39,842 bases of DNA. It comes from a virus. The stretch spans positions 1 through 39,842 of the IMG/VR virus record IMGVR_UViG_3300013126_000083; one strand, written 5' to 3'. Positions 25,712 to 39,700 of this stretch are shown here, piece after piece. The notes beneath the pieces were generated by a model. That model was not told where the DNA came from. It was given only the letters and a program-made list of their open reading frames with translations, and did no database searches. The position numbers were made by a program, and so were the translations under genes. Each line of letters opens with the position of its first letter. Positions within the stretch are counted from its first letter, which is position 1.

Positions 25712-26125
25712 TCAACAGATACGCTCGATGAGCACCCGCGGCGCGCTCGTCTTTCCCCGCCGCACCTTGAACCGCTTCGGTGCCAACTCGCTGCGCAGGC
25801 GCGCGCACGCGGCTATCGGGTCCGCCAGCGGGGCCGGGACCGCGACCGACTTCCCGACGGCGAGCCGGGACAGCACGCGCAACAGCGCTTTCGGGCGGAC
25901 GCCGTCGGGCCACGGCACCTTGTCGCACACGGTACAGCGATACACGTCGTGGTCGGTATGCTGCTGCCGCTCCGCGTACGGGTACGCCACGCGGGTGGTC
26001 AACTTCTCGCGCACGACCCGCCAGCCGTAATAACCTGCGCCACTGGTGAACACGTCACACGCTCGCGGCGACGCCAGATCGACGAAGCTACCGAGATGCA
26101 ACGCGGAGTAGCCATAGGCACTCAT
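25712..26125 (-). CDS. Unknown small protein, first gene of the late operon
   Basis: A 137-residue protein with no recognised family. The N-terminal half has aromatic residues (SAYGYSALHLGSF, GYYGWRVVREKL); RCTVCDK contains a single CxxC. The C-terminal ~50 residues (VGKSVAVPAPLADPIAACAR, then KRFKVRR and RVLIERI) look like a small domain seen at the end of many short phage proteins (V-x-V-P, A-R-x-x, K-F-x-V-R, R-V), whose role is unknown. GGGAG sits upstream of the ATG at 26125. It is the gene nearest the control region and is followed by TerS after 31 bases, so it could be an early or regulatory gene. Confidence 0.68.
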   Translation of the reverse strand: MSAYGYSALHLGSFVDLASPRACDVFTSGAGYYGWRVVREKLTTRVAYPYAERQQHTDHDVYRCTVCDKVPWPDGVRPKALLRVLSRLAVGKSVAVPAPLADPIAACARLRSELAPKRFKVRRGKTSAPRVLIERIC

Positions 26126-26341: not shown

Positions 26342-26364
26342 AGATATATCGCACCCCGAACTAC

Positions 26365-26653
26365 GGGTCGTGTCCCAGCCAAAGGCACGTGTCCCAGACT
26401 TTCGCTTGATTTCATTGGATATTCTGGCGGGTGGGACATCGGGACAGCAGAGTTCCCATATATACTATAAATTAGTATAACAGGTACCCTAAAATTGGTT
26501 AATTTTTCTCACCAAATTTTTATCTTCTTTTCACGAAAGTATAAAGTATAGTATCCCAATGTCCCGATTCGTAGAAAATTCAATTAAATCAAGCGAAAGT
26601 CTGGGACACGCGCTCGAAAAGGCACGCGTCCCGGCCTGTTCGGGACACGACCC
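26365..26653. repeat. Large interrupted inverted repeat around an AT-rich core
   Basis: Bases 26388-26412 are the exact reverse complement of 26586-26610 (25 bases). Towards the centre the match continues imperfectly for about 17 more bases. Further out, GGGTCGTGTCCC (26365-26376) matches GGGACACGACCC (26642-26653), although the right arm carries about 20 extra bases between the blocks. The intervening 173 bases are strongly AT-rich. GGGACA or its complement occurs eight times across the region and just left of it. Confidence 0.85.
26474..26502 (-). promoter_or_regulatory. Leftward sigma-70-like promoter, probable late-operon promoter
   Basis: On the minus strand TTAACC (26502-26497) is followed after 17 bases by TATACT (26479-26474), five of six bases of the -10 consensus. 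The spacer contains GGTACC, the box that also marks the other promoters in this window, so the site could be controlled by the same factor. It points towards the terminase and structural genes, about 350 bases ahead of the first one. Confidence 0.55.
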
Positions 26654-26691
26654 AAAGTAGCTGGTGCGTCAGATAGTGCGTAGAGACGCGC

Positions 26692-26843
26692 CGGAAAGTG
26701 TACGTGCGCCGAAAAGTGGCTCCGAAAAGTGTATCAGCATCTCTGACCTGCATAAAAATGTTCGAAAAGTGCAAAGTCCCAAACCACTAGATGCGCCGAA
26801 AAATGCGTCACGAAAACGACACATCAGCGCGCGAAAACGACAC
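26692..26843. repeat. Iteron-like CGAAAAGTG / CGAAAACGAC repeats
   Basis: CGAAAAGTG occurs at 26710, 26723 and 26763; GGAAAGTG at 26693 and CGAAAAATG at 26797 are near matches; CGAAAACGACA occurs at 26811 and 26832. All have the same orientation. CGAAAG(T) also appears in the inverted repeat arms. The cluster lies between the AT-rich core and the rightward promoter, where initiator-binding iterons or regulator sites would be expected. Confidence 0.7.
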
Positions 26844-26882
26844 GCCGAAACCGCCGAGGGCGCAGGCGGTCAAAATAGGTAC

Positions 26883-26920
26883 TTGACAAGCGCCCCAGCG
26901 CGGTATAGGTACCTAGTACG
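26883..26920 (+). promoter_or_regulatory. Rightward promoter with TAGGTACCTA palindrome (early operon)
   Basis: A perfect -35 TTGACA (26883-26888) is followed at 15 bases by TATAGG (26904-26909). The ten-base palindrome TAGGTACCTA (26906-26915) overlaps the -10 area, and another TAGGTAC (26876-26882) abuts the -35. TACGAC (26917-26922) follows. The arrangement recurs at 27881, with AGGTAC again 18 bases from TTGACA. It drives the SprT-like gene 26 bases downstream; the palindrome looks like an operator. Confidence 0.62.
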
Positions 26921-26945
26921 ACATCATCAACCAATGGAGACGAAC

Positions 26946-27638
26946 ATGGCAAACCGTATTCTCTCGACCACTACTACCGCCCCGGTGAGCATTCCCTACT
27001 CCGCGCGCATCGACAACAGTAACGGTGCCAAGGTGTTGTATGACACGCTGTACGCGGCCTTCGATCACTTCAACGCCGCGCTGTTCGACAGCAGGCTCGA
27101 CGCGGTAATGCTGGTGCTGCACCGCAAGCGTAACGCTCACGGCTACTTCTGGAAAGACGTGTGGAGTAGAGACGGGAGCGCCGTCGTCCTGAGCGAGATC
27201 GCCGTGAACCCGGAAGCGATGGGCCGCGAGCCGAAGGAAGTGCTTTCGACACTGGTGCATGAAATGGTGCACCACGAACAACACATGTTCGGCAAGCCGT
27301 CCAAGTCCGGGCACAACGCCGAGTGGTGCGAGTGGATGGAGCGGATTGGACTAAACCCGATCGGCGTCGGCAACTGCGATGGCAAGCGCTCGGGTCGCCA
27401 CTTCTCGCACACGGTCGTTTCCGGGGGTGCCTTTGACGTCGCGGCGGATGCGTTCCTTGCGGAGCACGACGGCGCGCTTGGGCTGTGCTCGAAGGCGGCG
27501 CAAACGGCGAAGAAGCAAGACCCCTCGAAGGTCAAGTTCACCTGCCCGGAGTGCGGCGCGAACGCGTGGGGAAAGGTCGGCTTGGCCCTCGTATGCGGTT
27601 GCTGCGAGCAGCGCATGCTGTCAAAGTATCTCGCATGA
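26946..27638 (+). CDS. SprT-like zinc metalloprotease
   Basis: A 230-residue protein. I start it at the ATG at 26946, which has GGAG seven bases upstream and follows the promoter; the frame stays open further upstream but that DNA is the repeat region. The SprT/Spartan-type core is clear: FDHFNAALFDSRLDAVML, then the active site HEMVHHEQ (H105, E106, H109) and HNAEW (H123) as third zinc ligand. A C-terminal zinc ribbon follows (CPEC at 200-203, CGCC at 217-220). Members of this family cleave DNA-bound or crosslinked proteins in cells; phage versions are common but their targets are not known. It is the first gene of the rightward early operon. Confidence 0.9.
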   Translation: MANRILSTTTTAPVSIPYSARIDNSNGAKVLYDTLYAAFDHFNAALFDSRLDAVMLVLHRKRNAHGYFWKDVWSRDGSAVVLSEIAVNPEAMGREPKEVLSTLVHEMVHHEQHMFGKPSKSGHNAEWCEWMERIGLNPIGVGNCDGKRSGRHFSHTVVSGGAFDVAADAFLAEHDGALGLCSKAAQTAKKQDPSKVKFTCPECGANAWGKVGLALVCGCCEQRMLSKYLA

Positions 27639-27898
27639 AAAGGCACTGGTCGAACATTGAGCCCGCGCTGCCCGCCGATGTGGTGGCAAGCATCTGGCGC
27701 GAAGTGCTGGCGGCGGGAACTCCAACGGGTATCAACAGCCTGACCCGCGCTTTCGCGGAGATCGCGATCGACTACCCGCACTACGCCACCGCGACCGAGA
27801 TCGCCGTGGCGCTGGGCGAGACCTACAACCGCATCAACCCGATGGTGCACGCGATAAAGGACGCAGCGCGTAGAAAGCGCTTGACAACGGGTACCTAG
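27635..27898 (+). CDS. Unknown 87-residue protein, co-translated with SprT-like gene
   Basis: The ATG at 27635 overlaps the SprT-like stop codon (ATGA). The 87-residue product (MKRHWSNIEPALPADVVASI ... AARRKRLTTGT) is helical, with a segment (ATEIAVALGETYNRINPMVH) that could be a helix-turn-helix or winged-helix recognition part, and a basic C terminus. It could bind DNA, perhaps as a regulator. No family is recognised. Its last codons run into the next promoter. Confidence 0.7.
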   Translation: MKRHWSNIEPALPADVVASIWREVLAAGTPTGINSLTRAFAEIAIDYPHYATATEIAVALGETYNRINPMVHAIKDAARRKRLTTGT

Positions 27899-27920
27899 AG
27901 GACTAGGTACTCAGTACGAC
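27881..27920 (+). promoter_or_regulatory. Second rightward promoter with GGTACC/TAGGTAC boxes
   Basis: TTGACA (27881-27886) is followed by GGTACCTA (27890-27897) and TAGGTAC (27904-27910), then TACGAC (27915-27920). AGGTAC lies 18 bases from TTGACA and TACGAC ten bases on from its start, exactly as at 26883. The -10 is weak. The box pair forms an inverted arrangement around GAGGAC. It overlaps the end of the 87-residue gene and serves the 27947 gene. Confidence 0.6.
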
Positions 27921-27946
27921 CACAACACAGCAATCAGGAGCATTCC

Positions 27947-28351
27947 ATGCCGTACGACCTCACGAAATCCGAGTACCCGCTTTCTGTCATCTTTGAAATC
28001 GACGACAACACCTTTCACGGCCACGCGAAGTTTGCGATCGAACTCGACGTGCGCCGTGCCCTCGGCCAGTTCCGCGACGAAATCGAGCAGGGCTGGGGTT
28101 ACTGGGAAGGCCAGCGCAACCCCTGCTACGTAATGTCGCAACGCGACTTCGACGCCTTCGCGAACATTCTGATGATGCACATCAAGGGGCAGCAGGCGGT
28201 CATGCAGGTGCGCGCGAACGGCACCGCCGTTATCGTCGACGTCAACGGCACGGTGCTGGACAGCGGAGAAATCAAGCGGGTTCCGCTCTCGGAACTCGAC
28301 AACTACAAGGGCTACACGCTGCTTGCGCGTGGTGCCTTTGTCATGGTGTAG
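27947..28351 (+). CDS. Unknown 134-residue early protein
   Basis: The sequence (MPYDLTKSEYPLSVIFEIDD ... GYTLLARGAFVMV) is mixed alpha/beta and slightly acidic, without signal peptide, membrane segment or cysteine cluster (one Cys). AGGAG precedes the ATG. It has its own promoter of the shared type. Being early, small, well expressed and unknown, it belongs to the group in which host-takeover or anti-defence proteins are often found, but no evidence assigns it such a role. Confidence 0.78.
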   Translation: MPYDLTKSEYPLSVIFEIDDNTFHGHAKFAIELDVRRALGQFRDEIEQGWGYWEGQRNPCYVMSQRDFDAFANILMMHIKGQQAVMQVRANGTAVIVDVNGTVLDSGEIKRVPLSELDNYKGYTLLARGAFVMV

Positions 28352-28359
28352 GGAGACTG

Positions 28360-28698
28360 ATGATGGGCTTTATCAACATGCCAACGATCACGAAACGGAC
28401 GCCGGATGACCAGCTTGTACCGACGGCGCGGATCGCGCTGAACGGGCTCGACCAATGGGCGCAGGAAGCGCACGACACCCTCGTCGGGCGGAAGGTGGTG
28501 TACATCGAGCCGCGCGCGCGCCCGTACTCCAAAGGGAGCGCTGGCATTATCACCGACGTTGCCGTCGGAGCGGGGGCCAGCGGCTACCACCTGTTCGTGA
28601 CGCTGCGCCTTATCGACGGCACACGCCGAACCGCGCGGGAACTCGGCGTCGACTGTGAACTGATCGCTGCGGACGATGTCAGGTCCGCAGACATTTGA
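28360..28698 (+). CDS. Unknown 112-residue early protein
   Basis: GGGAG lies before two adjacent ATG codons (28360 and 28363). The product has a beta-rich middle (DTLVGRKVVYIEPRARPYSK, GYHLFVTLRLIDGTRR) that may be a small barrel, and an acidic C terminus (CELIAADDVRSADI). The family is not recognised. It follows the previous gene after eight bases, and so is co-transcribed. Confidence 0.75.
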   Translation: MMGFINMPTITKRTPDDQLVPTARIALNGLDQWAQEAHDTLVGRKVVYIEPRARPYSKGSAGIITDVAVGAGASGYHLFVTLRLIDGTRRTARELGVDCELIAADDVRSADI

Positions 28699-28710
28699 AA
28701 GGAGAATGCT

Positions 28711-29097
28711 ATGACCACGAAGTCTAGTCCCGAGATGGAGAAACTGAAAGACGCGTGGCCCACGCCGATCGAGGTTGCCCACCTCGCCATGCGGGGGCTC
28801 ACCGACAAGACCAACGCCGACGGGCGAGTGCACGTCCCCGCCGCGCGAGTTAACGAAATCGCCGAAGGCGTCTTGCAGGCGGCGATCTACGATGCGCAGC
28901 GCGAGGGGGCGTACGCGCGTCTTCGGCGCGAATACGAGGGACTTCTCGCCGAGTTGCACCGGACGCGCGTCGCGTCGGACACGGCGCACGGCGACCTCGA
29001 CGTGCTGCGTCGTCGCGCTAGGTGGTATCCTTGGCTCGGCGGTATTGCGGGCGCGGTGATCGCGGTGTGGGCTTTCAGCTTGGCGGGGGCGTTCTGA
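28711..29097 (+). CDS. Unknown early protein with C-terminal membrane segment
   Basis: A 128-residue protein with GAAAGGAG before its ATG. The N-terminal ~65 residues are soluble, then a charged helix (YARLRREYEGLLAELHRT) that may be a coiled coil, a basic patch (RRRARW), and a hydrophobic end (YPWLGGIAGAVIAVWAFSLA) long enough to span the membrane, with no soluble tail after it. It is therefore tail-anchored, with the bulk probably in the cytoplasm (positive-inside rule). A holin-like, superinfection-exclusion or host-envelope role is possible; none is shown. It ends in TGATG, overlapping the next gene. Confidence 0.75.
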   Translation: MTTKSSPEMEKLKDAWPTPIEVAHLAMRGLTDKTNADGRVHVPAARVNEIAEGVLQAAIYDAQREGAYARLRREYEGLLAELHRTRVASDTAHGDLDVLRRRARWYPWLGGIAGAVIAVWAFSLAGAF

Positions 29098-29396
29098 TGA
29101 GCGGCATGTTCAAGATCATCGAGGGCGAAACCGCGGTAATCCGCGAGGGCGGTGTCTACAAGGAAGTGCTGCTCGCGACGCGCAACAACGGCGAACTCTA
29201 CGTCAAGGCGAAGGGCGGTTTCGTTCGCCTCTACGCCGACGGCTCCACCTCGGCAGGCTCGCGCTGCGTGCTCGATACGATCGTATTCGACACGCCGCTC
29301 TACAAGGACCGCGTTGGTCGTCTGTGCACGGCCACGGCGAAGGGCCGCGTCGCGCTCGACGCGACACCCGCGTACCTCGCGCGTGAAAAGGGGTGA
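29097..29396 (+). CDS. Unknown 99-residue early protein
   Basis: The start ATG at 29097 overlaps the previous stop (TGATG). MSGMFKIIEGETAVIREGGV is followed by YKEVLLATRNNGELYVKAKG and RLYADGSTSAGSRC: short beta strands, likely a small beta protein. A further ATG at 29106 is possible. No family is recognised and there is no targeting signal. Its start depends on re-initiation after the membrane protein gene. Confidence 0.73.
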   Translation: MSGMFKIIEGETAVIREGGVYKEVLLATRNNGELYVKAKGGFVRLYADGSTSAGSRCVLDTIVFDTPLYKDRVGRLCTATAKGRVALDATPAYLAREKG

Positions 29397-29402
29397 CGTA
29401 CT

Positions 29403-29783
29403 GTGAAGAAGCTCAACAGAAAGAAATCGTACACAGAAATCGGCGAGGTGACTAATGCCCCGGCGTCGACGATGGCCAAGGGTTTCGGGTTCGTGCAACT
29501 GCCAGATGGGCGCGTTGTGTACTGCTCACCCGAAGTCATCAAGAGCGCGGGTCTGGCGTACGAAGACATCGGAAGTAAGGTGCGAGTGCGCTATGTGCAG
29601 TTTCCTGACGGGCGGTTCTCCGCGATACGCGTCAACTTGCTGCGCAGCGATATTGACGACCAAGGGCTCGCCGATCTGGTGTTCGAGATTGACGACCACC
29701 TTGGCAAAATCGACGAGAAGATGATGACGCTGTACGACATGCTCGAAGCGCGGGGTTGCAAAGTCCCTGAGGTTGAGAAATAG
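29403..29783 (+). CDS. Cold-shock-domain-like protein with C-terminal helix
   Basis: A 126-residue protein starting with GTG at 29403, with GGGGTGA upstream. Residues ~24-78 resemble a cold-shock/OB domain: AKGFGFVQLPDGRVVYCSP has the RNP1-like KGFGF, and the following stretch (GSKVRVRYVQFPDGRFSAIR) has the later strands. Such domains bind single-stranded nucleic acid. The C-terminal part (LVFEIDDHLGKIDEKMMTLY) is a helix perhaps used for dimerisation. The N-terminal 20 residues are basic. It is the last gene of the early operon, right before a strong terminator. The RNA-binding call is by pattern only. Confidence 0.72.
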   Translation: MKKLNRKKSYTEIGEVTNAPASTMAKGFGFVQLPDGRVVYCSPEVIKSAGLAYEDIGSKVRVRYVQFPDGRFSAIRVNLLRSDIDDQGLADLVFEIDDHLGKIDEKMMTLYDMLEARGCKVPEVEK

Positions 29784-29814
29784 CCCTCGGACCACCGCTA
29801 GACTGCCTGAACTG

Positions 29815-29839
29815 CCCCCGCGAAAGCGGGGGTTTCTTT
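29815..29839 (+). terminator. Intrinsic terminator of the early operon
   Basis: CCCCCGC GAAA GCGGGGG forms a perfect seven-base-pair stem with a GNRA tetraloop, followed by TTTCTTT. It lies 32 bases after the cold-shock-like gene and ends just before the stop codon of the convergent primase gene. There is no U-tract on the other strand, so it mainly stops rightward transcription. Confidence 0.9.
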
Positions 29840-29842
29840 ATG

Positions 29843-32281
29843 TCAGGCTTCCTTCAGCCCGGCGCGCAAGGCCACCAGTTTCGTCGGGGCGGTGCTGTCC
29901 ATCTGGCGCATGCGATCGTACTGCGTAGCGCGCTCGTCTGCGGTCAGGCCGGTAAACGCGCGGGCGGCGTCTTCGTCGCGAACCAGCACGGTCATCTTGA
30001 CAGTGCGCTTCCGGTCGATGTACAGGCGACCGTGTCGCGGCCAGCGCGTTCTCAGGCGATCGGTCGCCTGCCTGCGCCATTGCGGATAGTCGTCCCGAAG
30101 GTCGCCGCGCACGAGGGCGTTCGACACCCGATCGAGGGCGACGTCGAGGGTAGTCCAGTCATAGGGCATGTTTTCGAGAACGCTGTCGACGATCTCGTCG
30201 ATCTCGGTTATGTTCGCTTCTTGCATCTGCTCTTTTCCACGGAAGTCGGGAGCTACGTGCATGTTGAACCCGGTAACGTCGCGCTCGTCTAGCCACGTCG
30301 CGACGCAACTGGCGAACCGCGGGTTCATCGTCGGATTACGCTCGGCGTTCAGACGACGCATCAGGTCTGGCTTATTCGCCAGCGGGATCGAGTTGTTCGT
30401 GAGAACGGTCAAGCGCCTGTCGCCGCGCGGGATCGGCACCGCGTTGTCGTGGTTCGTGGCGAGCAGGAACGAGGCGTAGACCCAGTCCTGATAGTTCGGT
30501 AGGGTCTTGCGGATGATGTCCATGCGCCGGGGTTTCGGGTCGATCCGCTCCTTCAGCTTCTCGTACGCCTTGCGACGACGCCATGTCATCGCTGTACCCT
30601 CATCTCCGTCAGGCAGCACCTCGTCGGTGGTGACGAACAAGGCACCGGCCATCCAGTCAGTGTACTGTCCCTGCGTGGCGTTATTCATCAGCATGTCCGC
30701 CGACACGCTCTTGACATAGCGGCTGCCGAACACCGAACCGAGGATTTCAAACAGCGAGCCCCGGCCAACTCCGAACGACGAGGCGTACATGATGACACCA
30801 ACGCCGGGCGTGAGCGGGTTTTGCTTCTTGTACGCCAGCCAGTTCTTGAACCATTCGCGCTCTTCCTCGTCTGGCAAAAGGTGGTCCAGAAAGTCTTCCC
30901 AAAGCGCGACGTATCCGGCGCGTTCCGCCGGGTCTTCGACGCGCTCGTGCGCGGGTGCTACGTAGCTGTTGATCGCGCGATCGCCGTCGCGCATGAAGAT
31001 ACCCGGCGGCTTGTCGGGCATGAAGCGATAGCCGTCAACATCCTGCCGCTGCGAGTGCTTCACCCACGCATCGACCGGGTTGATCACGACGGTACCGCCG
31101 CGCGGCCCGTGGCGCTCGTAGGCGTACTGTGTCATCGTCAAGCGCAGGTTCGTGAGGCTCATACCCAACTCTTCGCCACGGTATACCGGCAGGCATTGAC
31201 TGTAGCGGGACCCGCACCACGCCCATTCGTCGAGCAGCTTGAATACCATGTCCTGAAACGACGCGGGGGCGTCGTGATAGGTGTCGTGGTCGAACTCGAA
31301 GCCGTGGTCTTGCAGCTTCGCGCGCAGGTCGCTGATCTTGTCGCTCAAGCTACGCGCGCGGTCGATCAGGTCGGCGGGCAGGTGCCGCGTCCAGTTTGCT
31401 GTTTCGAGCACGTTCACCGCGCCCTCGTGATCCACGCTTATCAGGCAGCGAGTACGGTTTCGGAATTGCGGGTCGCCCATCCAGCTTGCCGAGCAGCGAG
31501 CATCGCGTGAGGTGGACGCGTAGTCGAGCAACTGGTCGAGGGATCGCGTGATCCCGTCGAGGCAGTCGAAGCGTGTGGTCGGCAGCAGATCGTACGCGGT
31601 AGCGGTACCGCTTTCGCCCGCTCGCGACAATTTGACGCGGGGCCAGCCGCCGCTTTCGAGTTCTTCGCTGGCGATCTGCGCGATCGTCAGCACCGCGGCC
31701 TTCGGTAGCACGGGCAGCGCGTTAAGCCGCACGTCGGCGGGACTTTCATCGCCGTCCCAGCGATAAGCGACAGCGAACGAGTTGCCGTCCTTCGCCATCG
31801 TGTGCGCACCGAACGCCCCGATCTGGCGCGGGTGGCCGCCGCCAAAAGCCTCTAGCCTATGTGTGGGTACGTCGTCCGCTTCCGGGTCTTGCCCCGGCTT
31901 CACGTACGATGTCGAAAAGATCACGCTGAAGGGTTCGTCGGTGCGACAAACCCACATTTCCTTGGCCCCCTTGCCGTAGCGTACCAGCGCTTCTCGCAGT
32001 TGTGGGAACTGCCCGGCTGCGCGGTTCCAGATACGCTTGACCATTGTCGCGTCATCGACGTCTATGTCGATCGCGCACAGGCCGTGCTCGACGCGTAGCC
32101 CCGTCGCTTGGTAGACTAGCTTGCGCCCCCAGCGCTCGATCTCTTCGACGGTAGGCTGCACCTTGTTCCAACCCTTCAGGAAGCAGCGTTTGTCGTGGTT
32201 CGGAAGCGGGGTGTATCCGTTGTCGAAGGCCGCTAGTCGGAATGCGGTCTGCGCGGCGGCGTTGTCGTGTCTGAAGCTCAT
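29843..32281 (-). CDS. Primase / SF3-type helicase, replication protein (DUF5906-like)
   Basis: I choose the ATG at 32281 (MSFRHDNAAAQTAF, 812 residues), where the family-like sequence starts and AAGAGA lies upstream; an in-frame ATG at 32347 would add 22 residues with no ribosome site. The N-terminal ~220 residues look like a primase-polymerase-type domain (NGYTPLPNHDKRCFLKGWNK, HGLCAIDIDVDD with the acidic pair). After a linker comes a D5/SF3-like ATPase: the P-loop region is ASSFGVGRGSLFEIL (about 500-514), in which the usual lysine is R507; FVTTDEVLPDGDEG is a Walker B-like motif and FLLATNHDNAVPI a sensor-like segment. It would prime and unwind DNA at the fork. It is the last gene of the leftward replication operon. 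Confidence 0.83.
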   Translation of the reverse strand: MSFRHDNAAAQTAFRLAAFDNGYTPLPNHDKRCFLKGWNKVQPTVEEIERWGRKLVYQATGLRVEHGLCAIDIDVDDATMVKRIWNRAAGQFPQLREALVRYGKGAKEMWVCRTDEPFSVIFSTSYVKPGQDPEADDVPTHRLEAFGGGHPRQIGAFGAHTMAKDGNSFAVAYRWDGDESPADVRLNALPVLPKAAVLTIAQIASEELESGGWPRVKLSRAGESGTATAYDLLPTTRFDCLDGITRSLDQLLDYASTSRDARCSASWMGDPQFRNRTRCLISVDHEGAVNVLETANWTRHLPADLIDRARSLSDKISDLRAKLQDHGFEFDHDTYHDAPASFQDMVFKLLDEWAWCGSRYSQCLPVYRGEELGMSLTNLRLTMTQYAYERHGPRGGTVVINPVDAWVKHSQRQDVDGYRFMPDKPPGIFMRDGDRAINSYVAPAHERVEDPAERAGYVALWEDFLDHLLPDEEEREWFKNWLAYKKQNPLTPGVGVIMYASSFGVGRGSLFEILGSVFGSRYVKSVSADMLMNNATQGQYTDWMAGALFVTTDEVLPDGDEGTAMTWRRRKAYEKLKERIDPKPRRMDIIRKTLPNYQDWVYASFLLATNHDNAVPIPRGDRRLTVLTNNSIPLANKPDLMRRLNAERNPTMNPRFASCVATWLDERDVTGFNMHVAPDFRGKEQMQEANITEIDEIVDSVLENMPYDWTTLDVALDRVSNALVRGDLRDDYPQWRRQATDRLRTRWPRHGRLYIDRKRTVKMTVLVRDEDAARAFTGLTADERATQYDRMRQMDSTAPTKLVALRAGLKEA

Positions 32282-32385
32282 TATATTTCTCTTGTGTTTA
32301 GCTGCGATCTGTGTACTAGATGCAGCGTCTGGAAAGGCATCTCTCATCGGTCGGTCGCTAGGGCCGCGGCGGAAACGTCGCGGCT
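32282..32385. other. 104-base gap before the primase gene
   Basis: The gap holds the possible longer N terminus of the primase. I see no convincing promoter, terminator or GGTACC box, so the primase gene is probably read from the upstream operon promoter. Confidence 0.4.
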
Positions 32386-32688
32386 TTAGTGCGTATAGGC
32401 GCTGTGGCCCTCGGGACGCCAGCCGTCACGGGCCCACAGGGCGACCCAGCGCGTGTCGGCGCGTACTTGTACAAGACAGGCCGCGCCGTCGAGATTTTGC
32501 ACGCCACGCTCTTGTCTTATTCGGGCGAACTCACAACGCGCCAACCGCAGCGCGTCGGCGTGCGCCGCCATTGTCGGCGCGGGTTCGCCGCGACGCCACT
32601 CGACTGCGACATAGTAGGGACCGTCGCTTGCCAGCGCGGCCCAGCAGGTAGACGACGTGGGGGGCACGATGGACTGTGGTTCTCTCAT
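32386..32688 (-). CDS. Unknown 100-residue protein in replication operon
   Basis: Starts MREPQSIVPPTSSTCWAALA at an ATG overlapping the helicase stop by four bases (ATGA), so it is co-translated. Basic and acidic residues alternate; YYVAVEWRRGEPAPT and RADTRWVALWARDGWRPEG form beta-like, Trp-rich stretches. The family is not recognised. Position between helicase and primase suggests a replication accessory role, but this is inference only. Confidence 0.66.
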   Translation of the reverse strand: MREPQSIVPPTSSTCWAALASDGPYYVAVEWRRGEPAPTMAAHADALRLARCEFARIRQERGVQNLDGAACLVQVRADTRWVALWARDGWRPEGHSAYTH

Positions 32689-34097
32689 AGCGTTTTCAGC
32701 ATCTCCTTGAAGGCGTCCTGATCGTTCATCTTGAACTCGACGCGGTTTCGCTTGACAATATCCACGGTACCACGCGCGATTATCTGATGGCTGTAAACCT
32801 GCCGCGTTTGGCCCGGTCGATCAAGTCGCTTGATGGTCTGGTCGTACTGCTCCGCGGACCACGGCGGGCAGTACCAGAGCATGCGCCGCCCGCCGAACTG
32901 CAATTCGACGCCGTGGCTGGCCGACGCCGGGTGCAGGATCAGGTTGTCAAGGCGACCCTCATTCCACTGTTCGACCGAGCGCATCTTCTGCTTCAGCGAT
33001 TGGCCCGCGCCAAGTACGCCGTACGATCGGCCCGCCTTGGCAAGCAGGGTTTCGATGCGCGACAAGTCTTCGAGGAAGCCGTAGCAGATCACCGACGTCT
33101 CCGCCCCGATCGCGTCGAGTTGGTAGCGCAAGATGTCGAGCTTCGCGTCGTGCAGGTAGTGCGCCGTTTTTGCCCCGTCTTCATCGGGTTGGTCGTAGAC
33201 GAACCCCTGTGCGATCTGCGCCAGCTTCGACGACGCCACGGCCTGCGTCAACGCAGCGATGACCGCTGGATCGCTTGGGTCTTGCTCACCGACGATAGAG
33301 ATTAGCAGATCGCGCTCCATCTTGCGGTACTGCCGTGCCACCTCGTCGGGTAGGTCGAACTCGAAGTCCTGCTCGACGCCCGACGTCAACGTGCCGTGGC
33401 GTGCGTCCTCGGGTTCTGCGGCGCGAACCATAAAGGTTTCGACGTCCCTGTCGAGTTGCCGAGCCCGGAAGTCGTGCACCTTCCAAACATAGCCGTGGAA
33501 GTCCATCGGCATGAAGTTGCGGCGACGCCACGCGACGAAGTCGTCGCCCCACAGCCCCGGCTTCAGCAGGCGCGCGGGCATGAACAGATCGGCGTAACCG
33601 TTCGGGCGCGGCGTTCCAGAGAACAGCCAGATCGACTTGGCCTGCGGCGCGATCTTTAACAGGGTCTTGCCGATGACGCCGCGCGGGTCTTTCAGCTTCG
33701 GCTCATCGTACACGAGAATATCGAGCGACGGATGGTCCTTGGGCAGCACCTCGGACAGCCAGCCCAGCACACCCTCGCTAACGGTCAGCACATCGGCGGT
33801 GCTCTCCTTCAGGCGACGCAGGCGTGCGGCGGGCCCGCCGGTCAGGGCTTCGACGGTGAGATGCTGCAAATGGGTCCATTTGGCGGGCTCGTTCGGCCAC
33901 ACCGTCGCGGCTACCAGCGGCGGCGCGATCACCAAGGCACGGCGGCGGTGGCCGTCGGCGAGCAGTTCGGAGATCGCGGTCAGGCAGGTGGCGGTCTTGC
34001 CGCCGCCCATACGCATGACAGCGTACACGCGGTCGTTGGCGTAGAGTTCGTCCACGCAGGATTGCTGGTCGGAACGCAGGTCGGAAAGGTCACGCAT
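32685..34097 (-). CDS. SNF2-type DNA helicase/translocase
   Basis: A 470-residue superfamily 2 ATPase. Walker A is MRMGGGKTA (K34), motif Ia APPLVAATVWPNEPAKW, motif II YDEPKLKD (D131, E132, with P instead of the usual third residue), motif III FSGTPRPNGY, motif V PASASHGVELQFG and motif VI QTIKRLDRPGQ, the arginine-finger motif. Such short SNF2 proteins sit beside VRR-NUC nucleases in many phage replication modules and are thought to remodel forks or DNA-bound proteins; the exact job is unknown. GAGGG lies ten bases before the ATG. The gene follows VRR-NUC and overlaps the next unknown gene. Confidence 0.92.
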   Translation of the reverse strand: MRDLSDLRSDQQSCVDELYANDRVYAVMRMGGGKTATCLTAISELLADGHRRRALVIAPPLVAATVWPNEPAKWTHLQHLTVEALTGGPAARLRRLKESTADVLTVSEGVLGWLSEVLPKDHPSLDILVYDEPKLKDPRGVIGKTLLKIAPQAKSIWLFSGTPRPNGYADLFMPARLLKPGLWGDDFVAWRRRNFMPMDFHGYVWKVHDFRARQLDRDVETFMVRAAEPEDARHGTLTSGVEQDFEFDLPDEVARQYRKMERDLLISIVGEQDPSDPAVIAALTQAVASSKLAQIAQGFVYDQPDEDGAKTAHYLHDAKLDILRYQLDAIGAETSVICYGFLEDLSRIETLLAKAGRSYGVLGAGQSLKQKMRSVEQWNEGRLDNLILHPASASHGVELQFGGRRMLWYCPPWSAEQYDQTIKRLDRPGQTRQVYSHQIIARGTVDIVKRNRVEFKMNDQDAFKEMLKTL

Positions 34098-34127
34098 GGG
34101 GTCTATCCCTCATCTGTAATGCTGGTT

Positions 34128-34421
34128 CTAGCCTTCAGGTACTTCGCCGTCAAGCACTTTCAGCACGCCAGCTTCGGTGTTCACAATATGCGCTTCGTGT
34201 CCGAGCGTCCGAACACGCGCCTGCCACCAGCGTTGCAGTTCCGCGACCACACCTCCGCGGGGTCGCTTCAACTCGACGAATAGTATGCGCCGCGGCAGCA
34301 CGACGAGGCGGTCTTGGATACCCTTGTAGCCGTGCGGGTCCAGCTTTACCGTGAAGCCTCCGCGGCGGCGCACCTCAGCGTCGAGAAACTTTTCTATGGC
34401 GGCTTCTTTAAGTGTTGACAT
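34128..34421 (-). CDS. VRR-NUC domain nuclease
   Basis: The 97-residue product starts at the ATG at 34421 (MSTLKEAAIEKFLDAEVRR), where GAGG gives a ribosome site; the frame stays open upstream across the divergent genes, which is not used. The stand-alone VRR-NUC pattern is clear: GGFTVKLDPHGYKGIQDRLV with the catalytic D, FVELKRPRG as the ExK motif, and AELQRWWQARVRTLGHEAHI. Family members are structure-specific nucleases acting on branched DNA such as Holliday junctions and flaps. It opens the leftward replication operon. The ribosome site overlaps a GGTACC box, so a regulator bound there could also affect transcription start. Confidence 0.9.
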   Translation of the reverse strand: MSTLKEAAIEKFLDAEVRRRGGFTVKLDPHGYKGIQDRLVVLPRRILFVELKRPRGGVVAELQRWWQARVRTLGHEAHIVNTEAGVLKVLDGEVPEG

Positions 34422-34451
34422 TGGTACCTCACATCCTGTAAGTACCTTATC
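34415..34451. promoter_or_regulatory. Divergent promoter/operator region of the replication operons
   Basis: GGTACC (34423-34428) and AAGTACC (34440-34446) lie in the 61-base gap between divergent genes. On the plus strand TTGACA (34415-34420) precedes them, but it overlaps the VRR-NUC start codon. On the minus strand the boxes read AGGTAC...AGGTACC, two copies 18 bases apart. The layout resembles the sites at 26883 and 27881, so co-regulation is plausible. Clear -10 elements are not visible. Confidence 0.5.
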
Positions 34452-34482
34452 ACCGACCCCGAAGCAAGAGGTAAGCAAGACC

Positions 34483-34629
34483 GTGAAACGCGAGCAGCAA
34501 AAGATTTTTCTGACCGCCGAGGCACGAGAGCGCCTGCGCGACGAGGCGCGAGCGCGGGCGATGGAACTGTCCGCGATCGTCGAATACCTGCTCCTGAAGG
34601 GCGAGTATCCACCGATTAACGCAAACTGA
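34483..34629 (+). CDS. Small ribbon-helix-helix-like putative regulator, 48 residues
   Basis: The start is a GTG at 34483 behind AGAGG; there is no closer ATG, and frames further upstream would overlap the divergent gene. The protein (about 48 residues) has the ribbon-helix-helix outline: a short basic N-terminal strand (KREQQKIFLT), helix A (AEARERLRDEARARA), a short turn and helix B (LSAIVEYLLLKGEY). Such proteins are DNA-binding dimers of the Arc/CopG kind and often autoregulate; the GGTACC boxes just upstream would be natural targets. It is the first gene of the rightward replication operon and ends 15 bases before the nuclease gene. The fold is inferred from pattern, not alignment. Confidence 0.65.
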   Translation: MKREQQKIFLTAEARERLRDEARARAMELSAIVEYLLLKGEYPPINAN

Positions 34630-34644
34630 ACCGAGAGATGAGAG

Positions 34645-36024
34645 ATGACCCAGCAACACGCCACGCCTGAAGAACACTCTAGTGTTGTCGGCGGCTCGAT
34701 CGCCGCGCGGCGCATCGGCTGCCCGCGCAGTTACACACTGGAACAGATGGTCCCGCCCAGCCAAGGGAGCGCGTACACCCGAGAGGGCACGGCGCTGCAC
34801 GAGATGATCGCGCAGGTGTTGCGCAACGACATTGAACCCGGTAGCCTGCTGCCGTTCACCTTCAAGCGCGAAGACGACGGGCGTCCCGAGGGCGCGTGGG
34901 AGTTTACCATCACCGAAGACTTGTGGTACGAAGTCGGCCAGCCCGCTCTTGACGCCTTCGACACGTTCATTGATGCGATCGAGATGAACACCGGCGGCGT
35001 GTTCGAGTTCGTCATCGAGACACGCTGCGTGTTACCCGGCATCGCGAACGCTTTCGGCACGGCGGACGTGATCTGGTCCTGCGGCAATCTGTCAGGGGTG
35101 TGGGACTGGAAGTTCGGACGCAACCGCGTAAGCGTCGAGGCCAACGACCAGCTTATGTTCTACGCCCGCGCGGCGGTATCGACGATCCCGGCCATGTTCG
35201 GCGCGAAAGCGTACGGCGAAGTCGATCCCACGCGCGAGGTGCTCCTGTCGATCATGCAACCGCAGGTCTCCGAGGAACCGAGCGAGTACCGCGTGACGGT
35301 CGGCGAACTGGAAGAATGGCGCAATACTCTGCAAGCCGCCGTTAAAAGCGCTACCGAACAGGGCATGAGCGCGCCGATCGGTAAGGGCAAGTGGTGCGAC
35401 TACGCCACCTGCAAAGCGGTCTGCCCGCTATGGGCGGGACAGTCTGCCGCGTTTGGCGAGAAGATGGCGAAGCTCGCCGAGATACAGAAGACCGAAGGCG
35501 TGAAGAACTTGACCGATGTCAAGGTGAACGGTCTTGAGCACCGTGACATCTTCGATCACGACGCGCTGTCGAACGTCGGCGCGGAACTCGGCTTCGCGGA
35601 AATCCTGCCGGAACTGCTGGCGTTGGCCGATACGGTCGAAGGATGGGTCAAGCAGGTGCGCGATGCGGCGTTCGAGATGCTTGAAGGTGGGGCGCAGGTC
35701 GACGGCTGGCGCATCGGGATCAGCACAACGTCGCGCCGTACGTGGGGTGTCGATGAGGCCGCTGTGCGGAAGTTCTTCAAGAACCGTCGCTACAAGATCG
35801 ACGAGTACATGCCGCGGCAACTCATCACCATGCCTGCCGCTGAGAAGTTGCTGAAGCGCGACGATCGCGCCGTGCCCGAAGATATGATCGACAAGAAGGT
35901 GTCGACAAAGAACGCGCTGGTGCGCGCGGATAGCGCGCTGCCAGCTTCGTCCTTGTCGTCCGACAGCGCCAAGGCGCTCGGCGACAAGATCGCCGCCCTT
36001 ACGGGCGGTCTTACCGGGGTGTGA
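34645..36024 (+). CDS. PD-(D/E)XK nuclease, DUF2800-type (RecB-like)
   Basis: A 459-residue protein. The N-terminal region has RIGCPRSYTLEQ and EGTALHEMI, the RecB-like opening motif; the catalytic core is GTADVIW (D141) and VWDWKFGR (D154, K156), then QLMFYA. WCDYATCKAVCPLW supplies three cysteines which, with Cys in RIGCP, could bind an Fe-S cluster or zinc as in AddB/Cas4-like nucleases. The C-terminal ~180 residues are a helical extension with YKIDEYM... LITMPAAEKLLK. Phage DUF2800 proteins sit in replication-recombination modules and probably act as exonucleases on DNA ends. GAGAG precedes the ATG, and the gene is co-transcribed with the small regulator upstream. Confidence 0.88.
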   Translation: MTQQHATPEEHSSVVGGSIAARRIGCPRSYTLEQMVPPSQGSAYTREGTALHEMIAQVLRNDIEPGSLLPFTFKREDDGRPEGAWEFTITEDLWYEVGQPALDAFDTFIDAIEMNTGGVFEFVIETRCVLPGIANAFGTADVIWSCGNLSGVWDWKFGRNRVSVEANDQLMFYARAAVSTIPAMFGAKAYGEVDPTREVLLSIMQPQVSEEPSEYRVTVGELEEWRNTLQAAVKSATEQGMSAPIGKGKWCDYATCKAVCPLWAGQSAAFGEKMAKLAEIQKTEGVKNLTDVKVNGLEHRDIFDHDALSNVGAELGFAEILPELLALADTVEGWVKQVRDAAFEMLEGGAQVDGWRIGISTTSRRTWGVDEAAVRKFFKNRRYKIDEYMPRQLITMPAAEKLLKRDDRAVPEDMIDKKVSTKNALVRADSALPASSLSSDSAKALGDKIAALTGGLTGV

Positions 36025-36055
36025 CCCCATAGGAAGTGGAAGTGGAAGTTAAAAC

Positions 36056-36793
36056 ATGAACGAAGTTGTGGACATGAAGTCGAGCGGCGCGCTCGCAGCG
36101 GTGCGGGCGCTGAAGGGCAACCTGAAGCGCGTGCAGATGCAGTTGCCAGATACGCAGGGGGCGCCGTATCTGCGTTTCCTGCAAGACGGGAACTGGGTGT
36201 TCGGGCAGGACAACGAAGAAGTTCTCACCGAAGACCTCGCGGCGATCAACACGTTGTCAATCAGGACCGGTTGGTCCTGCTGGACCGACCGCCCCGGCAA
36301 AGGTGTGAAGAACGAGAACCTCGGCGAAAGCATGGTGCCTCTCGGTTCCGATCCCTTGACGCGCGAGACGCTACCCGTGCACCGCGACCCCAAGAACAAT
36401 AACGCCGTTTGCGAGTGGCGCGCGCAGATCAGCGCCGACGTGAAGTTCCTTAGCGGCCCGCACAAGGGTACGCAGGTGCACTACAAGACGACGTCAATCG
36501 GCGGCATCAACGCGATGCGCGTACTGGTCGACCAGATCATTCTGCAAGTTGACGAAGACCCCGGCAACATCGTGCCTGTGGTCCACCTCGACGGCGACCA
36601 CTACAACCACAAGGCGTACGGTCGCACCTACACGCCGGTCTTCCGCGTCGTCGACTGGATACCGATGGACGGCCCGGCACCGGTAGCGGTAGCGGGAGTG
36701 ATCGAAGAGAAGCCGCTTGCGACGCCGGTCGCAGACGACGTGATCGACGACGGCGAAGGTGCCGAAGAACCTCGGCGTCGTCGTCGGCGCTAG
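36056..36793 (+). CDS. Replication-module protein of unknown function, possibly ssDNA-binding
   Basis: A 245-residue protein, behind a GGAAGTGGAAGTGGAAG purine tract that serves as ribosome site. The middle (SIRTGWSCWTDRP, then GESMVPLGSDPL, and HYKTTSIGGINAMRVL) is a pattern seen in phage proteins next to DUF2800 nucleases. The C terminus is acidic (DDVIDDGEGAEE) and then ends PRRRRRR. An acidic tail and its place between a nuclease and DNA polymerase suggest a single-stranded DNA-binding role, but the arginine end is unusual for such a protein, and the fold is not recognised. Confidence 0.62.
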   Translation: MNEVVDMKSSGALAAVRALKGNLKRVQMQLPDTQGAPYLRFLQDGNWVFGQDNEEVLTEDLAAINTLSIRTGWSCWTDRPGKGVKNENLGESMVPLGSDPLTRETLPVHRDPKNNNAVCEWRAQISADVKFLSGPHKGTQVHYKTTSIGGINAMRVLVDQIILQVDEDPGNIVPVVHLDGDHYNHKAYGRTYTPVFRVVDWIPMDGPAPVAVAGVIEEKPLATPVADDVIDDGEGAEEPRRRRRR

Positions 36794-36805
36794 GTCGAGC
36801 AGCAG

Positions 36806-36845
36806 GGCACGCCGGGTTCGCTCGGCGTGCCTTTCTCCCCTTTTT
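36806..36845 (+). terminator. Intrinsic terminator between the 36056 gene and DNA polymerase
   Basis: GGCACGCCG (36806-36814) and CGGCGTGCC (36823-36831) form a perfect nine-base-pair stem with an eight-base loop, followed by TTTCTCCCC and TTTTT. It ends only 18 bases before the polymerase start codon. It would reduce or stop rightward transcription, so polymerase expression needs read-through or a promoter within the preceding gene. Confidence 0.82.
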
Positions 36846-36863
36846 ACCGCAGGACGTCGTACG

Positions 36864-38114
36864 ATGAACGATATGTCGGTGCTTTCTCGCGATCCGCAGG
36901 ACTTTCTATTTTTCGACACTGAGACGCGCGCGCTTCCCGATCTGGAAGACCCGCGCTGGGGCGATGTCACACAGGCAGGTGCCGCGCGCTACGGAAAAAG
37001 CTGCAAGGTCGTGGTGTTCCGCTACTGCATCGGCAACGGGCCGATGCGTCGCTGGGACTTGGACGACTTTTCCAAGACCCTGAAATGGCGCGAGGCACCG
37101 CCGGATTTGCTAGAGCATCTGGCGCGCGCGCTGAAGGGCGAGACGTGGTTTGTCGCGTGGAATAGCTTCTTCGACCGGCACGTATGTAACGGCGGTATGG
37201 TGCGCCCGTCGGCTGGTCCTGCCCTTCCCGTGCGTGTGGTGCTGGACGCTATGGCGCAGGCGACGGCGTCTAACCTGCCAGCTAAGCTGGAAGGCGCTTC
37301 TCGCGCTATCGGGCGCAGCGGCAAGGTAGAACTTGGCAAGCACCTGATCGCGCTGTTCGCACCCGCTGACGGCGGCACTCCACAGTCGCACCCGGTCGAA
37401 TGGGAGCAGTACAAGGGGTACGCCGACGTCGACGTCGAAGAACTGCGCGCGGTGTTTCTGGCGACGCGTCCGTTGTGGCGCTGGGAATGGGAGCAGTTCT
37501 GGACTAGCGAGACGATCAACGATCGCGGGTTGCCGATCGACGCACACTTCGTCGCGCGCGCTAAAGTCCTCGCCGACGCGTACATGACACAGGTCGACGA
37601 GCGTGTCGTCGAGTACACGCACGGGGTGTGCTGGTCTGTAAACCAGCACGTCGCGTTGGCGAACTGGGTCGCCGACGGCGTCGCGCACTTGCCCGAGGCC
37701 GCGGACATTCTCGTGAAGAAGTATGAGGAAGACGCCGAGGGCGACGGCCTCGTTGCCGCCGCGCTTTCACTCTCGCGCGACCGCGTCGAGAGACTGATCG
37801 CCTATCTGGAACGGCTCGACGAAAAGCAGGGGCTGACCGACGACGAGTTCGACGTGCTGCAACTATTGGAAACTCGTCTGTACGGTGCCTCGGCGACCCC
37901 AAAGAAGTTCGGTAAGATGCTGCCCATGCTCGACGGCAGATACCGCCTGTGCGGGCAGTACACGTTCAACGGAGCTCAACAGACTGGGCGCTTCTCGTCA
38001 CGCGGTGCGCAGGTTCATAACCTCACCCGCGCCTTTGTGGGCATGGAAGATCAGGCACCCGGGCGCGAGGCCGAGGCGATCGAGTTCATCAGCGAGATGG
38101 AGATCGAAGAATGA
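36864..38114 (+). CDS. DNA polymerase family A, N-terminal half (3'-5' exonuclease + thumb)
   Basis: A 416-residue protein from the ATG at 36864 with AGGA nine bases upstream; the longer frame to 36759 would overlap the terminator and preceding gene. The proofreading exonuclease is marked by Exo I FFDTET (D18, E20), Exo II AWNSFFDRHV (D104) and Exo III YADVDVEEL (Y186, D190). Then come a thumb-like helical region and QYTFNGAQQTGRFSSR, the conserved family A segment that normally precedes motif A of the palm. The protein stops shortly after this (EIEE), and the rest of the polymerase is encoded by the next gene. The two are joined by an ATGA overlap. Confidence 0.9.
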   Translation: MNDMSVLSRDPQDFLFFDTETRALPDLEDPRWGDVTQAGAARYGKSCKVVVFRYCIGNGPMRRWDLDDFSKTLKWREAPPDLLEHLARALKGETWFVAWNSFFDRHVCNGGMVRPSAGPALPVRVVLDAMAQATASNLPAKLEGASRAIGRSGKVELGKHLIALFAPADGGTPQSHPVEWEQYKGYADVDVEELRAVFLATRPLWRWEWEQFWTSETINDRGLPIDAHFVARAKVLADAYMTQVDERVVEYTHGVCWSVNQHVALANWVADGVAHLPEAADILVKKYEEDAEGDGLVAAALSLSRDRVERLIAYLERLDEKQGLTDDEFDVLQLLETRLYGASATPKKFGKMLPMLDGRYRLCGQYTFNGAQQTGRFSSRGAQVHNLTRAFVGMEDQAPGREAEAIEFISEMEIEE

Positions 38115-39166
38115 CCGGCGTGTCGACACTACGTCAATTCGAGGATCGGTTCGGCTCTCCGGGCCGCGCGCTGTCGCGCCTGATCCGCCCATCTATCGCC
38201 GCCAAGAATGGCCGTACGATGGTGTGGGGCGACTGGTCGGCGATCGAAGCGCGCGTGCTGCCGTGGCTCGCGGCGACGCGCGGTGCCGAGGGCGTGCTCG
38301 ACATCTTCCGCGCGTCGGACGCTGACAAAAGCGTGCCGGACATCTACATGCACGAGGCGGCGAACGTACTCGGCATGAACGTCGACGAGATGTGGGCGGA
38401 GTACCGCCAGAAGAACCCCCGCGCGAAGAACTGGCGACAGCAGGGAAAGGTGCCGGTACTGTCACTGGGATTTGGCGGTGGCGTTGGCGCCTTGCAGCAC
38501 ATGGCGGTCAACTACGGCATCTCGATCACTGAAGACGAAGCGCGTGTCGTGGTCGATAAGTGGCGCGAGAACAACCGATGGGCGCGCGCGTTTTGGGACG
38601 CGCTTTGGAAGGCGCTCCTCGTCGCGATGGAACACCCCGACGTTCCGCAGGAAGTCGGACGCGTGGTGTACCTGTTCGATCCCGGCTATATGGGCGGCAC
38701 CGTGTTCTGCTTCCTTCCAGATGGGCGTCCCATCACGTACCCCGGCGTCAAGTGGATGAAGCGCGAGCGCGAAGACCGTGAAGGCAACGTGACCGAGCGC
38801 GTCGAATTAACCTACATGCGCGGCTATGAGCGTGTCTCGCTCTGGTACGGGGTGCTCGCCGAGAACGTAACCCAAGCGACTGCCGCCTCGCTGCTTCGCG
38901 ACTGCCTGTGCCGACTAAGCCCGGCGCAGAGCTTGAAAGGCGCGCGCGAGCAGGTGTTCACATCGCCGTTCGCGCAAGTGCACGCCGAAGTGATCGGACA
39001 CACGCACGACGAAATCATCGTCGAGACTGAAGACAACGACGACGACGTTAATGCGGTCAGGGCTATCTTGCACGCCGAGATGGGGCGCAATCCAGACTGG
39101 GCGACCGGACTGCCGCTCGTCGCTGAAGTTTCGGATAACTGGTACTATACTAAAACGGTAGGTTAA
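38111..39166 (+). CDS. DNA polymerase family A, C-terminal half (palm/fingers)
   Basis: A 351-residue protein with the catalytic polymerase motifs: motif A WGDWSAIEARVL (D41, E46), motif B RQQGKVPVLSLGFGGG (R109, K113, F121) and motif C HTHDEIIVET (D300, E301). F121 stands where many family A enzymes have Tyr; this position is known to affect discrimination against dideoxynucleotides. It lacks an exonuclease and thumb, so it must pair with the upstream product to make a complete enzyme. The ATG overlaps the stop of that gene, allowing coupled translation. I see no intein or homing endonuclease at the junction. It replicates the phage genome. Confidence 0.92.
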   Translation: MTGVSTLRQFEDRFGSPGRALSRLIRPSIAAKNGRTMVWGDWSAIEARVLPWLAATRGAEGVLDIFRASDADKSVPDIYMHEAANVLGMNVDEMWAEYRQKNPRAKNWRQQGKVPVLSLGFGGGVGALQHMAVNYGISITEDEARVVVDKWRENNRWARAFWDALWKALLVAMEHPDVPQEVGRVVYLFDPGYMGGTVFCFLPDGRPITYPGVKWMKREREDREGNVTERVELTYMRGYERVSLWYGVLAENVTQATAASLLRDCLCRLSPAQSLKGAREQVFTSPFAQVHAEVIGHTHDEIIVETEDNDDDVNAVRAILHAEMGRNPDWATGLPLVAEVSDNWYYTKTVG

Positions 39167-39570
39167 TGATGTCTGCTACAGAAGACCACGGCACCCCGCG
39201 CGGGCGCGTGCTCAAGGATGCAAGCGCACTCACTCATGGAGACAGGAACGACGCGTACGGCGATCCCGTCGATAACCACGAGCACATCGCCCGCATCTTC
39301 AACGCGATCACCGGGCGTGATCTAAGCGCGCGCGAGATCGTGCTGGTGCACGAAGCGACGAAGCTGGCGCGTCGCGCGAGGAACCCGAGGCATTACGACA
39401 GCTACGTCGACAACGCGGCGTACGTCGGGATCGAGTTCGAGTGCGCACTAGCGGAGTTTGACGCGCAGACCAAGGCCGAGCCTCAGACGCACGCTCGCGA
39501 GGCCGAAACCGAGGATGACGGGTTCGTTACGATTGACCCGGCATCCACGATCGCCAACGGCATCGACTGA
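39166..39570 (+). CDS. DUF6378-like protein
   Basis: A 134-residue protein whose ATG overlaps the polymerase TAA (TAATG; a second ATG follows at 39169). The core GDRNDAYGDPVDNHEHIARI, then FNAITGRDLSAREIVL and SYVDNAAYVGIEFECAL is a widely found phage domain of the DUF6378 kind, helical and perhaps related to MazG-like all-alpha nucleotide hydrolases. The function is unknown. The C-terminal ~30 residues are acidic and poorly conserved in appearance (AETEDDGFVTIDPAST). Its place after polymerase would fit nucleotide metabolism. Confidence 0.82.
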   Translation: MMSATEDHGTPRGRVLKDASALTHGDRNDAYGDPVDNHEHIARIFNAITGRDLSAREIVLVHEATKLARRARNPRHYDSYVDNAAYVGIEFECALAEFDAQTKAEPQTHAREAETEDDGFVTIDPASTIANGID

Positions 39571-39671
39571 AGCCTGACCTCGCGCTACCCGGCAACGGCG
39601 ATCCATTTTGCCTGAGCGTGACTGATGCGCGGGCGGCACTGTAAAATCTTTGCACATAGTGCGTTTTCCTG

Positions 39672-39700
39672 TTGACTAGGTGCACACTAGGTGCGATGAT
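39672..39700 (+). promoter_or_regulatory. Promoter with tandem TAGGTGC boxes before the last gene
   Basis: TTGACT (39672-39677) is followed after 17 bases by GATGAT (39695-39700). The spacer holds TAGGTGC at 39677-39683 and again at 39688-39694, eleven bases (about one helical turn) apart. The boxes resemble TAGGTAC of the other promoters with G for A. The gene downstream starts at 39726. Confidence 0.55.

Follow-up and report, generated by a model that had tools for sequence, protein, structure and literature searches.

A GTAC-containing box at early and replication promoters of a short-tailed phage and its relatives, and a candidate ribbon-helix-helix reader

Gene layout and GTAC boxes of the window

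The stretch of DNA analysed here (hereafter the window) is a virus record of 39,842 bp, entered in the database as linear and perhaps incomplete, with the gene content of a short-tailed phage. Structural genes run leftward up to position 26125, and early small genes (SprT-like, ORF 27635, ORF 27947 and others) run rightward from 26946. These are followed by leftward genes for a DUF5906 primase and an SNF2 helicase (34097-29843) and a VRR-NUC protein (34421-34128), and then by a rightward series made up of a 48-aa ORF (34483-34629), a DUF2800 nuclease, an SSB-like protein and a DNA polymerase, the names VRR-NUC, SSB and polymerase being our own reading of the sequence together with annotation in relatives. 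The polymerase is encoded in two ORFs (36759-38114 and 38111-39166) in the window and as a single continuous frame of 750-780 codons in Mel-JY33, G001 and G003 (see below); a real split, a frameshift from sequencing and an intervening element are all conceivable. A single ORF of 3,485 aa (1230-11687), with counterparts of 4,012 aa in Mel-JY33 and Nsp-JY18, is unusually large given the size of the phage.

The closest named phages are Microcystis phage Mel-JY33 and Nostoc phage Nsp-JY18, with 59% identity in TerL and 41-42% in the DUF2800 protein. Relatives in IMG/VR include G001 (3300044452_000142), G002 (3300025652_007223), G005 (3300038701_002266), which is colinear with the window, and others. 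The SprT protein alone as query retrieved no close viral relatives, an SNF2 alignment retrieved none from bacterial genomes, and no publication naming Mel-JY33 was found in the literature searched.

The preliminary description of this DNA had drawn attention to a GGTACC/TAGGTAC box, and sequence searches recovered every copy that it named, some of them displaced by one base. That is, GGTACC lies at 26483, 26908, 27890 and 34423, TAGGTAC at 26876, 26906 and 27904, and TAAGTACC at 34439, while TAGGTGC, a variant that lacks the GTAC core, is found at 39677 and 39688. The longer frame TTGACA-N18-AGGTAC-N4-TACGAC, said to be shared by two sites, was confirmed at 26883 and 27881: these are the only two matches to TTGACAN{16,20}AGGTAC in the record, and both read TTGACA-N17-TAGGTAC-N2-AGTACGAC, again with no other match. 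The boxes do lie near TTGAC elements, as had been noted, but their spacing is not uniform, since GTAC starts at -4, +26 and +33 relative to the -35 element at 26883, at +10, +26 and +33 at 27881, and at +9 and +27 at 34415. The distances between boxes in the window are 7, 16, 18 and 30 bp.

Four putative promoters carry GTAC boxes. The putative promoter of the SprT (early) operon (26876..26919, plus strand) consists of TAGGTAC (26876-26882), directly followed by a -35 element TTGACA (26883-26888), a 17-bp spacer, a combined -10 and box TAGGTACCTA (26906-26915) and a third GTAC (26916-26919). In the putative promoter before ORF 27947 (27881..27917, plus strand), TTGACA (27881-27886) is followed by GGTACC (27890-27895), a combined -10 and box TAGGTAC (27904-27910) and GTAC (27914-27917), and positions 27891-27910 form a perfect 8-bp inverted repeat, GTACCTAG-AGGA-CTAGGTAC. 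The candidate promoter of the rightward operon from the 48-aa ORF to the polymerase (34415..34446, plus strand) has TTGACA at 34415-34420, GGTACC at 34423-34428 and, at the -10, AGTACC (34441-34446). Here TTGACA shares bases with the start codon of the leftward VRR-NUC gene, read in reverse (ATGTCAA), and GGTACC lies just behind the Shine-Dalgarno sequence of that gene (GAGGTACCAATG). A leftward promoter before the SNF2 helicase (34125..34153, minus strand), absent from the preliminary description, reads TTGACG-gcgaAGTACCtgaaggc-TAGAAC, with the -35 at 34153-34148, the -10 at 34130-34125 and AGTACC in the spacer (GTAC 34139-34142). The -35 elements of the boxed promoters are near consensus, and the -10 hexamers TAGGTA, TAGGTA and TAAGTA (26906, 27904 and 34439) match the consensus poorly.

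Two further sites are weaker. The box at 26482 had been placed inside a leftward promoter, and such a promoter can indeed be read (26474..26502, minus strand; TTAACC-17-TATACT with an extended -10 and GGTACC 26483-26488 in the spacer); it lies, though, in the core of an origin-like element, and the box is kept in G005 but not in G001. This element (26350..26668) has an AT-rich core (25-29% G+C) between inverted repeats of 41 nt (90%) and 27 nt (78%) that are composed of GGGACA/TGTCCC units. G005 (25-nt arms) and G001 (125-nt arms with their own units, GTGACA/TGTCAC) have an element of this layout near where the terminase genes start, which suggests a replication origin. The DNA separating the window element from the early promoter holds a 14-nt repeat, TGCGCCGAAAAGTG, in four copies (26687-26805) and, nearby, CGAAAACGACAC in two copies; these are possibly iterons.

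The other weak site is a promoter-like TTGACT-17-GATGAT (39672..39700, plus strand) with two TAGGTGC variants (39677 and 39688) 11 bp apart, for which no comparative support was found in the relatives, so that its membership in the regulon is uncertain and the late-gene coverage claimed earlier is weakly supported. Orthology of this promoter to boxed promoters of G009 and G010 was rejected, as the flanking genes differ. Late control may still occur, given a GTAC pair located between the divergent SprT-operon and terminase promoters of Mel-JY33.

Distribution and conservation of the boxes

Over the whole window, GGTACC is modestly enriched (11 copies against 5.1 expected). TAGGTAC with at most one mismatch is not significantly so (45 against 38.7), and this count was dropped as evidence. 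The distribution is more telling. Non-coding DNA makes up only 1,498 bases, or 3.8%, of the window, and the curated non-coding DNA contains 8 of the 18 copies of AGGTAC (about 0.7, or 0.68, expected; the other 10 are spread over the remaining 38 kb), 4 of the 6 copies of TAGGTAC (0.23 expected) and 3 of the 11 copies of GGTACC (0.41 expected). In 1000 dinucleotide shuffles of promoter and intergenic segments, the 9 observed copies of AGGTAC compared with 0.62 expected and a maximum of 4; the non-coding count is less biased than this figure, because two of the shuffled segments had been picked for holding boxes. Shuffling also gave 1.1 expected instances of TTGAC with GTAC at -4 or +7..+12, against 5 observed, and 0.025 with a further GTAC at +22..+27, against three sites. 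Equal frequency inside genes, the outcome that the preliminary description had named as speaking against its claim, was thus not seen, and the boxes concentrate at promoters.

For a controlled comparison, the genes of 15 genomes were called by a simple method based on codon usage, and candidate promoters were defined as hexamers starting with TTG and matching TTGACA in at least five of six positions, located 10-130 bp upstream of a gene start and with non-coding DNA at the -10; GTAC was scored from -12 to +32. Among 13 non-redundant genomes bearing the replication module, the window included, GTAC was present at 39 of 72 candidate promoters compared with 164 of 1,495 (11%) TTGACA-like sites in coding DNA (binomial P 3e-19), the window contributing five promoters out of five. 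This automatic count includes cases such as the GTAC at -11 of the Mel-JY33 and Nsp-JY18 promoters of the 48-aa ORF, which is located inside the VRR-NUC coding sequence and which we do not argue to be an operator. GTAC ranked first of 136 tetranucleotides for promoter enrichment in the same 13 genomes, and it occurred immediately before TTGACA 8 times against 0.46 expected. Importantly, none of 30 promoters of relatives sharing the terminase only carried GTAC, and distant DUF2800 relatives (11 of 113 promoters) equalled their own coding background. In ten further, shorter module loci the rate was 6 of 19, indicating that the feature is common but not universal. The commonest spacing of GTAC pairs in the pool was 12 bp (27 pairs), although coding DNA also raises multiples of three; non-coding pairs at 11-12 bp were found at promoters of G005, G007, G009, G010, Mel-JY33 and Nsp-JY18. 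The longest tandem array seen consists of four GTACC units 11 bp apart (GGGTACCAGCCGAGTACCAGCCTAGTACCAGCCGAGTACC) in a divergent intergenic region of G005 (L106:15512-15549).

Corresponding promoters can be compared directly. At the boundary between the VRR-NUC gene and the 48-aa ORF, the window reads TTGACATTGGTACCTCACATCCTGTAAGTACC, G002 TTGACATGGGTACCTCCTTCGTCGTAAGTACC, G005 TTGACGACTGGTACCAGATCGAGTACC and G001 TTGACATGACGGGTACTTTATCTTAACAT; that is, the boxes are kept in G002 and G005, and one box is kept in G001. On the 3′ side of ORF 27635 the window has TTGACAACGGGTACC...TAGGTAC and G005 has TTGACAGGAGGTACCAAAGCAGGTACC at the corresponding promoter. Upstream of the SprT operon (window, GGTACTTGACA; Nsp-JY18, GGTACTTGACT; Mel-JY33, AGTACTTGACC; G005, GGTACTTGCCA), GTAC directly precedes the -35 element in the three relatives as well. 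The SNF2 promoter carries GTAC at the corresponding site in G005, G002 and G001, and in G007 boxes flank a -35 on either side (AAGTACTTGACAGGTACC). Mel-JY33 and Nsp-JY18 share with the window the replication module, the gene for the 48-aa protein and GTAC pairs upstream of the SprT operon, but differ in that the spacer of the promoter of the 48-aa ORF lacks GTAC. Proteins around the boxed sites are about 40-65% identical among the relatives, a level at which unselected DNA should not stay recognisably alike. The boxes are therefore a conserved promoter-linked element of this phage group, and the proposal that early and replication promoters have a regulatory box in common is borne out by promoter enrichment, absence from terminase-only relatives and retention in module-bearing ones.

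The 48-aa predicted ribbon-helix-helix protein

The 48-aa ORF (34483-34629, plus strand) is the first gene behind one of the boxed promoters. An AlphaFold2 model of the monomer (pLDDT 87.9) has an extended segment at residues 1-11 and helices at 12-24 and 29-39, i.e. the strand-helix-helix fold of about 45 residues typical of the ribbon-helix-helix (RHH) class. The nearest solved folds are CopG, CdbA, PcfF, a designed beta-alpha-alpha peptide, VapB26, Arc and PutA, with Z scores of 4 to 5.5, which are modest, as expected for 48 residues. Profile comparisons matched PutA (E=0.006), VapB26 and MazE7. No Pfam match was obtained for the window protein; one homologue matches RHH_1 at E=7e-4 and others do so weakly.

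Most relatives encode a homologue at the corresponding gene boundary. Profile comparison identifies the gene clearly in 11 of the 13 module genomes and weakly in 2 (G011 and G015), whose proteins are read as RHH-like from position and pattern; clear profile members are the window, Mel-JY33, Nsp-JY18, G001, G002, G003, G005, G007, G009, G010, G013 and G017. Among the small shared genes, it is the only one found whose product resembles a transcription factor. With a strand register inferred from our own alignment to Arc, the positions predicted to face DNA are Q-K-F/Y/M in most box-bearing relatives, G007 being an exception with Q-S-H and yet with boxes. In the relative L068 the protein has N-N-R, and none of the 6 L068 promoters is boxed. 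This locus (17,925 bp, 67% G+C) has no GTAC anywhere, which suggests avoidance, for example of a restriction site; GTAC as a restriction or methylation target by which promoters are controlled was also considered. An Arc-like autoregulated system would have an operator on the promoter of its own regulator, and GGTACC and AGTACC are located between the -35 and -10 upstream of 34483. The association of the boxes with the RHH protein is good, and this protein is the likeliest candidate reader.

Candidate mechanism, alternatives and known systems

The reading that we hold to be probable, with some reservation, is that the GTAC boxes, whose best form is GGTACC/TAGGTACC and which in relatives frequently come in pairs at 11-12 bp, serve as operators overlapping the -35, the spacer or the -10 of host-sigma70-type promoters of early and replication operons, and that they are read by the phage RHH protein as an autorepressor. 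On entry, host RNA polymerase would fire the early and replication promoters with their near-consensus -35 elements. As the RHH protein accumulates, its dimers would bind GTAC half-sites on one face of the DNA via the N-terminal strand (REQQKIFLT), and would silence the operon that encodes them together with the remaining boxed promoters. The co-occurrence of the boxes with the replication module that carries the RHH protein argues for this reading, as does L068, where a differing strand goes with unboxed promoters. Against it stand the boxes of G007 despite its Q-S-H strand, the spacer without GTAC at the RHH promoter of Mel-JY33 and Nsp-JY18 and the varied box spacing in the window, which is unlike a fixed cooperative operator, as well as the rate of 6 of 19 promoters in the further module loci; moreover, the lack of GTAC in L068 could reflect restriction avoidance. 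The persistence of boxes in G007 next to a different strand would also suit operators read by another protein, be it a regulator of the host or a second factor of the phage. One phage candidate is the product of ORF 27635, which is small and mostly helical in its model and whose gene ends inside the 27881 promoter. We consider a reader other than the RHH protein rather unlikely, as terminase-only relatives lack the boxes, which hence, at least if the hosts are alike, track the replication module and not the structural relatives. ORF 27635 itself was rejected as the box reader owing to the low-confidence model and a distribution too narrow (window and G005 only) for boxes that are widespread.

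The main mechanistic rival is activation, in view of the weak -10 hexamers (26906, 27904 and 34439): an RHH protein that reads the boxes could activate or switch the promoters instead of repressing them, and a box directly before the -35 is a possible activator position. It seems improbable all the same, given that boxes also occur in the spacer and on the -10, where a bound protein normally blocks polymerase, and that near-consensus -35 elements need no helper. In two window promoters the -10, set off by a 17-bp spacer, is TAGGTA, which could also be taken as a promoter part, i.e. a -10 variant TAGGTAC used by host or phage-modified polymerase, without any operator; this is very unlikely, since GTAC is located at several offsets from the -35 (-4, +7 to +12, +22 to +27 and +33) and other relatives have ordinary -10s (TAACAT, TAGAAC and TATCCT) with the box elsewhere. 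Chance occurrence of short words in AT-richer intergenic DNA would fit the unremarkable whole-window count of one-mismatch TAGGTAC, but is hardly credible given that the boxes are enriched specifically at promoters, both in the window and, independently, in its relatives, with negative controls at background.

Autorepression by the RHH protein would have close parallels. Arc of phage P22 is an RHH repressor of about 50 aa that binds short half-sites approximately one helical turn apart on a promoter. The window protein matches it (1b28) at Z 4.1 and 15% identity; the Arc half-site is TAGA and not GTAC, and the boxes of the window phage, which belongs to a different phage group, occur at several replication and early operon promoters. 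CopG is a plasmid copy-number autorepressor whose operator overlaps its own promoter. It is the best fold match (1ea4; Z 5.5 over 40 residues, 22% identity), but it controls copy number through one plasmid operon, and its operator sequence is unlike the window boxes. Dimers of RelB, another RHH protein, occupy adjacent 12-bp half-sites on the same DNA face in autorepression, in a toxin-antitoxin locus with RelE as co-repressor and the hexad [A/T]TGT[A/C]A (PMC2812701). Unlike the RelB locus, no toxin gene was recognised beside the window RHH gene. GTAC pairs about one turn apart (11-12 bp) are found in several relatives, compared with distances of 7 to 30 bp in the window.

The preliminary description had proposed that one factor coordinates the whole phage programme. 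The RHH candidate makes a single factor plausible, but coverage of the entire programme is not established, the sites at 26482 and 39677/39688 being weak. In the literature searched, there was no account of transcription control in phages with the DUF2800/SNF2/VRR-NUC/PolA module, and the literature on phage RHH proteins or GTAC operators held nothing concerning them. The GTAC box and its RHH candidate would be a new example of small RHH operator systems. They provide an operator of defined sequence, a candidate regulator of 48 aa and a set of promoters that are probably under its control, and the natural small series of RHH strand variants with their operators is material for studying how RHH proteins choose DNA. 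A lineage-wide master circuit is a doubtful extension, in which a single RHH protein of some 50 aa would recognise GTAC in the origin-like core around 26482 as well as at the early and replication promoters; if true, it would couple the closing of these promoters to the start of replication in a group of short-tailed phages that has been little studied.
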